Assembly: GCF_031323975.1 (NCBI RefSeq)
Contig: NZ_JAVIWS010000001.1
Location: 3,410,001-3,474,000 of the forward strand
Direction: 5' to 3'
DNA: 64,000 nt
Source of the DNA: Escherichia ruysiae
GTDB taxonomy: Bacteria > Pseudomonadota > Gammaproteobacteria > Enterobacterales > Enterobacteriaceae
Made by a program: the position numbers and the translations under genes. The notes under the pieces were generated by a model. The model ran no database searches, was not told the origin of the DNA, and saw only the letters and a program-made list of their open reading frames with translations. Positions 60,923 to 64,000 of this stretch are shown piece by piece. How positions within the stretch are numbered: the stretch's first letter is position 1; every line of letters begins with the position of its first letter.

Positions 60923-60954
60923 CGTTCTCAGGCAGTAATGCGTTGATACTAATG

Positions 60955-60984
60955 GCAGGTTCTCTGTTGATACAGGGAACCTGC
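60955..60984 (+). terminator. Stem-loop after mrcB
   Basis: GCAGGTTCTCTG and CAGGGAACCTGC form a 12-base stem with one G-T pair around TTGATA. No T-run follows. It marks the end of the core segment before the accessory genes. Confidence 0.65.
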
Positions 60985-61248
60985 TAAATTTAGTGGGATG
61001 CAAATATCAGAAGAAATTGACCTGTTTAATATTCAACGCAATGAATTTAAATATTTTTTGCGTGAAACATTCTTCCTTTGATGCCAACAGACATCCTCTC
61101 AGAATAGTCGATGAAAGCGTATCGACACAGCCTTTGCCGGACTTAATGAGAAAGCGAATCAAAAAGGTAAATAGTGAATGACTATAGCAGTGCACGCTAA
61201 TGAGGTATCTCTCAACGTTGTTATTGGTATTAATGAGGGGGGCAAAAG
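60985..61248 (+). promoter_or_regulatory. AT-rich leader of the accessory operon
   Basis: This gap between the mrcB hairpin and the methyltransferase gene is AT-rich and I see no convincing gene; a 62-codon frame (60993-61181) has no ribosome site. It contains the inverted repeat GTCGAT-N8-ATCGAC at 61107-61126, a possible operator. GAGGGGGG just before the ATG at 61249 is the ribosome site. Confidence 0.6.
61107..61126. promoter_or_regulatory. Possible operator palindrome (GTCGAT-N8-ATCGAC)
   Basis: Two perfect six-base arms face each other across eight bases, 123 bases before the start of a gene for a helix-turn-helix methyltransferase. XRE-type methyltransferases often repress their own operon at such sites; this is inference. 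Confidence 0.35.
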
Positions 61249-63405
61249 ATGATGCGCTCTGGTCAGCAAGTATCACATCCTGAGAATCACTATCAGGCAT
61301 TATTGCAGGAAATTATGGCATTAAGTGGCCTGGATCCGAAAGGCGTGGCGCAGTATCTCGGCACTTCTTACATTTCAGTTGCTCGCTGGATTCGCGGGGA
61401 TATTGAACCCAGTGCCGATACGATAAAAGAATTGCATGAGCTACTTGCGAAGCTCAATGCGGGTCTGGCGATCGATCTTGCGAATCTGAATACGACACGA
61501 ACATTCGCCTCTCGTGGGATACGTAAAAAAACGACAGCCGACAAATATGAAGGCACGATTGTGCTGCGCGATGAGCCGGGGCTGCCTCTGCTCTCCCGAC
61601 TTAAAAAAGGAGAACTTTGGGGCAATGGTGAATACCTGTTGGCTGAAATTCTTTCATCGCATTCTGAAGCTGCGCAGACCGTGAAAGAGGCTGTGGCGGA
61701 GGGCGTTTCAGCAGGAAAGAATACGTATACTTATGACGCGCATACATATCACACCAAAGTTCCGCCTCAAGGGATTGCCCAGGTGCTGCAAAAATATTTG
61801 CCCGAAGGCGGACTGGTGCTTGATCCCTTTGCGGGAAGCGGTATGACAGGGGTCGCGGCACTGACGACCGGTCATGATGTCATTCTCAATGAACTGTCAC
61901 CTGCAGCCAGTTTTATCGCTAATCGATTTACATCGCAATGCGATCCCGCTGCGCTCGCGGCGGCGGTAAAAGTAGTTACTGAGAGTCTGGAGGATCTGCG
62001 TAAAACCCTTTACACAACGCAATGCCGTACCTGTGGAAAAGAGGCAGAGTTGCTCTTTACTGTCTGGTCATACAAAGTCATTTGCAGCGAGTGTAGTAAG
62101 GAGTTTGTGCTTTGGGACGAATGCCGTAGCTACGGTAACACTGTGCGCGAACATAAATTTTTGCGCGAGTTCCCGTGCCCTTATTGTCATCATCAGGTCA
62201 AAAAATCGCGCCTTGCCCGAACGACGCCAGTGCCGGTTCTCGTGGGGTATAAATGCTGCGGTAAAGCTCAGTCCGAGGTGCCGCCTGTGGAGGCCGATCT
62301 CAAGCTCATTGCCGCAATTGACGCAGGCAAATATCTTGCTGAGGGGTTCATCCCGGATTTCGATCTACCAGATGGAGTGAATCTGGCACAGCCCAAGCGT
62401 CATGGCCTGACTAACATAAAGCATTTTTATACTGCCAGAAATCTGGCGGCGATGAGCCAGTTGTGGAAAGCGATTCATCGCGTTGAAGATACCAATATTG
62501 CCGCATTTCTCGGCTTTGTTTTCACTTCGCTCTATCAGCGTGTGACCCGGCTTTCTGAGTACCGTTTTTGGGGCGGCAGCGGTAATACGGCAAATTTTAA
62601 TGTCCCGTATATTTTCAATGAAGCGAATATCTTTTTGACCTTCGAACGCAAGGCCAGATCAATTATTGATCACCTTGAAACCACGGCTAAAGCCTACGTT
62701 GGTCGTTGTCAGGTTAAAACGGGTTCTGCGACCGATCTTTCGTTTCTGCCGGATAATAGTGTTGATCTGATTTTCACCGATCCGCCGTTTGGAGCCAACA
62801 TTAACTATAGCGAAATGAATATGTTGTGGGAGTCCTGGTTAATGTCCTATACGGATGCCACGGATGAAGCCATAGTTAATCGCGTACAAAAAAAGGATGC
62901 CAACAGATATCAGGAATTAATGACGCAGAGTCTGGCTGAAAGTTATCGTGTGCTAAGACCAGGACACTGGATGGTGTTGGTATTTATGAACTCTTCGGAG
63001 GACATCTGGAATCGTCTGCGTAATGCAGTGCTGGATGCTGGTTTTACCATTGAAAGGATCGATATTTTCGACAAGCAGCATGGTACGTTTAAGCAATTTG
63101 TTAGCGATAACACCGCAGGTGCTGATCTCATGCTGCATTGTCGTAAAGTTGAAAATGGCAACAAGCAGGAAGTGTCAACGGCGGAGGCGAAAACCATTTC
63201 AGTTAAGGAATTCCTGAGCCAGCGAAATGGTACGATCCCCGTGCTTCCTTATCTGCACGTTAAACGTGAGGCTGATATTGATTATCGCACTCTCTACAGC
63301 GAATATCTGGCTGAAAGTCTTTTACTGCATGGGAAAATGTTGGACTTCGCGACCTTCAGGTCTCAGGCAATTGCTCTTTTGGAAGGTAATAAGGATCCGT
63401 TGTAA
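61249..63405 (+). CDS. HTH-containing DNA amino-methyltransferase with zinc ribbons
   Basis: I do not recognise a named gene. The 718 residues begin with an XRE-like helix-turn-helix (about 25-66: VAQYLGTSYISVARWIRG). The AdoMet site is LDPFAGSGMTG (191-201) and the catalytic DPPF lies at 511-514, so the order motif I then motif IV fits an N6-adenine or N4-cytosine methyltransferase. Between them are cysteines in CxxC-type pairs (259/262, 279/282, 310/313) and a CC at 336-337, likely zinc ribbons in the target-recognition part. It may act as a modification enzyme and autoregulator. Its stop overlaps the next gene (TAATG). Fhu genes are expected here in K-12. Confidence 0.82.
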   Translation: MMRSGQQVSHPENHYQALLQEIMALSGLDPKGVAQYLGTSYISVARWIRGDIEPSADTIKELHELLAKLNAGLAIDLANLNTTRTFASRGIRKKTTADKYEGTIVLRDEPGLPLLSRLKKGELWGNGEYLLAEILSSHSEAAQTVKEAVAEGVSAGKNTYTYDAHTYHTKVPPQGIAQVLQKYLPEGGLVLDPFAGSGMTGVAALTTGHDVILNELSPAASFIANRFTSQCDPAALAAAVKVVTESLEDLRKTLYTTQCRTCGKEAELLFTVWSYKVICSECSKEFVLWDECRSYGNTVREHKFLREFPCPYCHHQVKKSRLARTTPVPVLVGYKCCGKAQSEVPPVEADLKLIAAIDAGKYLAEGFIPDFDLPDGVNLAQPKRHGLTNIKHFYTARNLAAMSQLWKAIHRVEDTNIAAFLGFVFTSLYQRVTRLSEYRFWGGSGNTANFNVPYIFNEANIFLTFERKARSIIDHLETTAKAYVGRCQVKTGSATDLSFLPDNSVDLIFTDPPFGANINYSEMNMLWESWLMSYTDATDEAIVNRVQKKDANRYQELMTQSLAESYRVLRPGHWMVLVFMNSSEDIWNRLRNAVLDAGFTIERIDIFDKQHGTFKQFVSDNTAGADLMLHCRKVENGNKQEVSTAEAKTISVKEFLSQRNGTIPVLPYLHVKREADIDYRTLYSEYLAESLLLHGKMLDFATFRSQAIALLEGNKDPL

Positions 63406-64000
63406 TGGCATACTTACAAGCATTTACTGATACTGAAAAGGTATTTGCTAAACGGTGGTTGGCAACTCAGGTTGCCGCCATGATGGGCAGAAAGCTGGAG
63501 GAAGGTGACTGGAGTCGCGTTTACTGCCTGGCAAAAAATATTCCTGATGGTGGCTGGAGCAATTTACATATTGATGTCAATTATCAGGGATTGGGGCTGG
63601 AGATGAAACTCTTGCGCATAGCAGGCCTGCGTGACAGACCGATCAAGTCAGTCTGCGGCACTACGCTTATGCACCCGGCTGCAACGCGTTCGATCCGTAT
63701 TGATGATACCACTCGTGATGCTAACGACGTGATGCATGACGTCTTCCAGCAATACGCAGAGCTTATAGAACGTCGAACGCAAACGGTAAGAGATGCCGCA
63801 CCTCATAAGACCCCTGATATGCGTACAGGCTGGCTACTATGGGAGGATAGTCTGACGGAATTCCTCTATTTTGAAGAGCGGATGATCCCGCCAAATCCGG
63901 AGCAGTACACAGCGGTATGGAATGTTACTCCAGCTAAAGGGGCACGTAAGGCCAGCAAAAGTTTGTGGATATATGACCGGGATACAAAGCAGAAACGCTA
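63405..64000 (+). CDS. Candidate restriction endonuclease, 3' end outside window
   Basis: The frame is open to the window edge (198 codons seen). Its ATG shares the A of the methyltransferase TAA stop, so translation is coupled. The N-terminal part reads IDVNYQGLGLEMKLLR: Asp57, then Glu66-x-Lys68, spaced as in PD-(D/E)xK nucleases. The following part (LMHPAATRSIRI, about residues 88-99) is not a motif I recognise. No membrane segment or signal is seen. The gene looks like the nuclease partner of the methyltransferase, but I cannot name its family and the C-terminus is missing. Confidence 0.65.
   Translation, partial: MAYLQAFTDTEKVFAKRWLATQVAAMMGRKLEEGDWSRVYCLAKNIPDGGWSNLHIDVNYQGLGLEMKLLRIAGLRDRPIKSVCGTTLMHPAATRSIRIDDTTRDANDVMHDVFQQYAELIERRTQTVRDAAPHKTPDMRTGWLLWEDSLTEFLYFEERMIPPNPEQYTAVWNVTPAKGARKASKSLWIYDRDTKQKR

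Follow-up and report, generated by a model that had tools for sequence, protein, structure and literature searches.

The final part of a 64,000-nucleotide stretch of Escherichia ruysiae (the window; genome G000, contig C1, positions 3,410,001 to 3,474,000 of a 4.54-Mb contig) carries a two-gene cassette, here called M and R, that very probably constitutes a type II restriction-modification (RM) system. Judged from sequence comparison and a structure model, R would be an endonuclease without a family name and M a methylase of the type found in bacteriophage exclusion type 3 (BREX-3), here occurring outside BREX. The predicted role of M is to methylate a short recognition sequence in host DNA, and that of R, likely as a dimer, is to cut that same sequence where it is unmethylated, such that unmarked foreign DNA would be destroyed by the pair; the cassette may thereby act against phages. 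A preliminary description of this DNA had suggested a methyltransferase and a nuclease of the restriction-modification type, and the suggestion is now supported by domain matches, the structure model of R, an invariant D-E-K triad, and the conserved pairing of the two genes.

The organization of the cassette is that of a type II system, with separate and adjacent genes for methyltransferase and endonuclease. Following mrcB, the open reading frames of M and R overlap by one nucleotide, the ATG of R sharing a base with the stop codon of M, and because of this overlap translation of the two genes is likely coupled. At the level of sequence and model, R has the active-site residues of a known type of nuclease, and Pfam identifies no ATPase or helicase domain in either protein, as expected of a system without an ATP-dependent translocase. 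The features of the cassette, in positions of the window, are:

61249..63405, + strand: M, 718 amino acids, DNA methyltransferase related to the BREX-3 methyltransferase BrxXI/PglXI (open reading frame, Pfam, PADLOC, alignment)
61306..61446, + strand: N-terminal helix-turn-helix (HTH) of M, residues 20-66 (Pfam HTH_3, E 1.8e-4, 21.9 bits, just under the 23-bit cut-off)
61822..61842, + strand: motif I of M, DPFAGSG, residues 192-198, conserved over the 21 aligned M sequences (the M of the window and those of 20 loci)
62023..62259, + strand: Cys-rich part of the M insert, predicted to bind zinc, residues 259-337, seven conserved Cys
62779..62790, + strand: motif IV of M, DPPF, residues 511-514, within a PPFG.NINYSEMN stretch found in 21/21 M sequences
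63405..64000, + strand, continuing to 64370 (L002:6406-7371): R, predicted PD-(D/E)XK restriction endonuclease, 321 amino acids (open reading frame, model, fold matches)
63573..63608, + strand: predicted active site of R, D57 ... E66-x-K68, invariant in 87/87 aligned sequences
60923..61248, + strand: spacer from the mrcB stop to M, 326 bases, A+T-rich (GC 0.39)

A predicted endonuclease with a tandem ribbon-helix-helix tail

R matches no family in Pfam, NCBIfam, PADLOC, or PHROGs. The structure model (predicted local distance difference test score, pLDDT, 90.2) has a fold like that of restriction endonucleases over residues 4-229, with matches including 3ndh (which we take to be ThaI), SfiI, MvaI, and HincII, and SfiI among the better ones by Z score. 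The same fold and the D...E-x-K triad are thus shared with PD-(D/E)XK type II restriction endonucleases, but there is no sequence match between these enzymes and R, and the extra C-terminal domain belongs to R alone. The earlier view of the second gene as a nuclease, rather than a member of an unrelated family without a nuclease site, accords with the modeled fold and with the invariant triad. Among PDB sequences, only weak matches to VP8* (E 0.077; 0.0085 with a profile) and to glycosyltransferases were returned, and kinship with either was rejected, the matches being judged to be chance.

Residues 229-321, outside the window, are modeled as a tandem ribbon-helix-helix (RHH) resembling TraY (Foldseek probability 1.00, E 0.011) and DndE (0.92, E 0.043), and R is by prediction a protein of two domains, an N-terminal PD-(D/E)XK nuclease and a C-terminal tandem RHH. 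TraY and DndE also carry their tandem RHH in one chain; unlike in these proteins, the RHH of R is fused behind a nuclease domain, and its locus, of two genes, includes neither a relaxase nor a DndD ATPase. In Dnd and Pbe systems, as described in PMC10853773, the tandem RHH protein is paired with a DndD/CxC ABC ATPase; R has the tandem RHH fold, but Pfam detects no ATPase domain in either gene of the cassette. The RHH domain may give R a further contact with DNA, or it may act as a repressor of the operon. According to the DefensePredictor study (PMC13092281), PD-(D/E)XK and RHH are two of the three commonest domain families in its uncharacterized predicted E. coli defence clusters.

Exchange of the partner methyltransferase

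Loci related to the cassette were drawn from genome contigs (n = 25), from 72,556 plasmid records (one, L030), and from 50,697 phages (one, L031), while the sole viral contig found, L029, was identical to L013 and left out of the count. These make 27 distinct loci, with L004 from the window's own species among them, and 26 could be judged, as L016 begins inside R. In 25 of the 26, R directly follows a gene for some methyltransferase. In 21 it is M, and in four (L022, L026, L030, and L025, the last with only the C-terminal part of the enzyme on its contig) a C5-cytosine methyltransferase takes the place of M; the phage locus has neither type within the 6.8 kb retrieved. The three C5 enzymes present in full length (L022 6598-7989; L026 1552-2934; L030 1779-3233) are 61-64% identical to each other, and BLAST detects no resemblance between them and M at E <= 1e-3. 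A tree was built from 20 R sequences, with nine locus copies set aside because each was broken, partial, a duplicate, or distant (L004, L016, L020, L023, and L027-L031). The C5 type occurs there in two places, with only moderate support for the fork around L022 (87/87) and with L025 labelled as unknown.

Two unrelated methylases beside one nuclease is the arrangement that a site-specific restriction enzyme predicts. The exchange fits an R that cuts a site protected by either methylase, would be hard to explain if R acted on a particular methyl mark, and gives indirect support to the predicted shared target of M and R. Because a C5 methyltransferase can replace M, the recognition site should contain a cytosine in addition to whatever base M methylates. 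The nearest solved relative of one C5 partner, M.HaeIII, is too distant for its specificity to be transferred.

Several individual loci deserve description. By eye, the C5 partners of L022, L026, and L030 also contain pairs of CxxC motifs, like the recognition insert of M. On pGX1, a mobilizable plasmid of Komagataeibacter xylinus with a length of 5.5 kb (L030 1779-4312), R is paired with a C5 methylase, and the R gene, annotated as two overlapping hypothetical open reading frames, reads as split in the record. The 469-kb Sinorhizobium phage Phosso (PV764938.1, L031 2005-2805) encodes a shorter R homologue (34% identity over 82%) adjoining tRNA genes, whose D and E-x-K residues align with those of R, and which might attack the DNA of its host or of rivals. 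An M20 peptidase is encoded by the gene that overlaps the end of R in L024, and this gene was judged to be outside the system.

The methyltransferase and BREX type 3

M matches the Pfam family N6_N4_Mtase (E 1.6e-17), and its best PADLOC model is PglXI (E 6.1e-114, 380 bits), with the profile matched to position 656 of 919; the next best, all type II methyltransferase models, scored 277, 249, and 102 bits. Motif I is presumably the site of AdoMet (S-adenosylmethionine) binding and motif IV presumably the catalytic loop of an amino-methyltransferase, in which we take DPPF to favour an adenine over an N4-methylcytosine product. The target-recognition insert on its own (window 61936-62730) matches PglXI at E 3.6e-30 and, less strongly, two type II models (E 2.3e-20 and E 1.5e-16), and the cysteines at residues 259, 262, 279, 282, 310, 313, and 337 are invariant in 21/21 sequences. 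In PHROGs, M matches DNA methyltransferase and unnamed families, with one weak match to a helicase family at the region of the AdoMet motif.

An HTH-type motif is present in 15 of the 21 M sequences, and the N-terminal HTH, possibly an autoregulator, may regulate the operon. The Pfam methyltransferase match together with this sub-threshold HTH_3 match is in keeping with the regulated methyltransferase originally proposed. The HTH of M and the RHH tail of R may each tune expression or add a DNA contact. Regulatory DNA-binding domains fused to RM enzymes have precedents in M.SsoII, where such a domain is joined to the methyltransferase (PMC3978073), in M.ScrFI-type C5 methylases with an XRE-type HTH (PMC3346939), and in fusions of C protein and endonuclease such as NsoJS138I (PMC3850674). 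The cassette differs from these in its parts: M.SsoII and M.ScrFI are C5-cytosine enzymes and endonucleases of the NsoJS138I type are fused to a C protein, whereas here the methylase is of the BREX-3 type and the endonuclease carries an RHH.

M was compared with a BrxXI encoded on an Enterococcus faecium plasmid, next to genes annotated as brxF and BREX-3 pglZ. Residues 143-666 of M are 30.5% identical to this protein by BLAST, and the alignment reveals a shared motif I, Cys-containing target-recognition insert, and DPPFGANI-YSE motif IV. The match stops at BrxXI residue 669 of 936, where 52 residues of M remain, and M is therefore without the last ~265 residues of BrxXI. BrxXI is described as having a C-terminal HTH region of ~280-300 residues (PMC12839542), for which M has no counterpart; conversely, the N-terminal HTH is a feature of M, unlike BrxXI, and the partner of M is R rather than a set of BREX genes. 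According to that survey of BREX, from 2026, searches with the insert gave no homologues beyond BREX systems (PMC12839542). By sequence, M and its relatives are such homologues, as apparently are the type II models of PADLOC. The preliminary impression of a pair with no obvious name holds for R, which matches no named family in the libraries searched, but not for M, which has close kin in the methyltransferases of BREX type 3.

Apart from its BrxXI/PglXI-type methyltransferase, the locus does not resemble BREX. It consists of two genes only, and the marker gene PglZ was not found in the window's genome, where the other core BREX genes were not searched for one by one; a BREX system or BREX remnant was rejected on the lack of PglZ. 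A BREX-3-type methyltransferase also occurs on the Pseudarthrobacter plasmid pASPHE301 (L056 5870-9617), after a separate small HTH gene and before a second methyltransferase gene, and this is possibly another non-BREX setting for the enzyme. On plasmids more generally, M has matches at E <= 1e-20 in 15 of the 72,556 records, none of which covers 80% of M, and of the two inspected, one was BREX-3 and the other had no BREX annotation.

Alternative explanations of the cassette can be weighed against a type II system. It is improbable that R is a modification-dependent, type IV-like enzyme, or that M and R resemble a phage-growth-limitation pair in which invading DNA is first marked by M and then cut by R. 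With an intact M next to such an enzyme, the DNA of the host would itself be open to attack, and a C5 methyltransferase in place of M would supply a chemically different mark. Additionally, the better fold matches of R by Z score include SfiI, an enzyme described as cutting GGCCNNNN|NGGCC (PMC4081073). From its TraY- and DndE-like C-terminal domain, R could be read as a protein that chiefly binds DNA to regulate or scan it, its nuclease domain being dead and M serving as an epigenetic methyltransferase under its control. This is very improbable: D57, E66, and K68, which should tend to be lost from a dead domain, are invariant and line up in the shorter phage homologue, and Pfam finds no ATPase in M or R.

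It is exceedingly improbable that the cassette is left over from a BREX-3 locus, or accompanies one as a satellite, with M working together with BREX parts and not with R, even though M matches the BREX-3 methyltransferase across motif I, insert, and motif IV. PglZ was searched for in 14 other genomes (13 known to carry R, and G099, known to carry M) and was absent from 12, while in the remaining two PglZ and R are on different contigs; the cassette has mrcB on one side and fhuA on the other, M is truncated relative to BrxXI, and M and R are paired across phyla. Some observations do weigh against a type II system of the kind proposed: PglZ genes are present in those two genomes, the HTH motif is missing from six of the 21 M sequences, and R is broken or split in L020, L023, L027, and L030, with a two-frame match in L016. 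A further and rather unlikely proposal is that the M-R pair is a free-living relative and the source of the BREX-3 methyltransferase, with BREX-3 being an RM system that swapped its endonuclease for the PglZ machinery, and that R represents a new class of restriction endonuclease in which the tandem RHH tail either reads DNA as a second head or serves as an in-built repressor.

The insertion between mrcB and fhuA and its significance

The names mrcB and fhu are taken from the preliminary description and from E. coli annotation. That description placed a break in gene order after mrcB, with two overlapping genes that lacked a nearby integrase and continued as an operon past the window. The break and the overlapping genes are confirmed by the open reading frames, and the stretch from mrcB to fhuA contains no integrase-like gene. 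R, open to the window end, does run on, and is complete in the whole genome at 321 codons, 370 bases beyond the window, but nothing of the operon follows it: fhuA comes directly after R, its ATG at the window-equivalent of 64625, with the remaining fhu operon genes behind. The cassette is therefore two genes only, bounded by mrcB and fhuA, and an operon continuing beyond R was rejected. Because M and R are both conserved across phyla, these are more than chance open reading frames.

The proposed comparison of the mrcB-fhuA gap gave 3,702 bases from the mrcB stop to the fhuA start in the window's genome, against 218-225 bases in seven of ten other Escherichia species and 219 bases in the E. coli comparison; by eye, ~45 bases of the ordinary gap are replaced by the insert. 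In the remaining three species, one contig ends just past mrcB (G006) and two have other genes in the gap, which by eye are fimbrial-subunit-like and chaperone-like in G001 (L043 1-1500) and fimbrial-subunit-like in G010 (L039 1916-2723). Because of these fimbrial-looking genes, the gap may be a recurrent insertion site in Escherichia. A mobile-element route was rejected, as no tRNA was found in the fetched stretch around the cassette and none of the direct repeats listed flanks it or sits at both edges. The spacer upstream of M, in which no consensus promoter or terminator was found and which has no match in E. coli genomes, is expected to hold the cassette promoter.

Positions 61249-64000 have no megablast match in 5,426 complete E. 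coli genomes, a set that may omit records closely similar to the window's genome. For the core genes on either side, the best E. coli match among those listed is at 94.3%, and one of the 5,374 matching E. coli records falls in the 95-99% band. Of 99 genomes searched, only the window's own contains R, and the ten other Escherichia species among them do not; a wider sampling of one family matched one of 299 genomes, which was already known. The record 'E. coli strain E69' (CP089930.1, L004) has R at 100% and M at 99.7%, and the same-species genome G099 has the first 391 codons of M at 99.5% on a 3.4-kb locus, which from matching positions is probably from the strain of that record. The cassette looks recently acquired.

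It should be noted that no report of the M-R pair, of a PD-(D/E)XK-RHH restriction enzyme, or of an mrcB-fhuA RM locus was found among the papers listed in searches of an open-access library, with REBASE not covered, and the pairing of a nuclease with a TraY/DndE-like tandem RHH likewise was not found there. The cassette is of an ordinary kind, but its parts are unusual: the predicted endonuclease, of a family that none of the searched libraries names, has an RHH tail, and the methylase is of the BREX-3 type yet stands apart from BREX. The R family, with 1,249 homologues that are nameless in the four libraries searched, gains a likely role and a likely active site, and the exchange with a C5 methyltransferase constrains the recognition site of R. 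The BREX-3-type methyltransferase, insert included, occurs beside a plain predicted endonuclease, and the M-R pair offers a minimal two-gene setting in which to learn the modification made by M.
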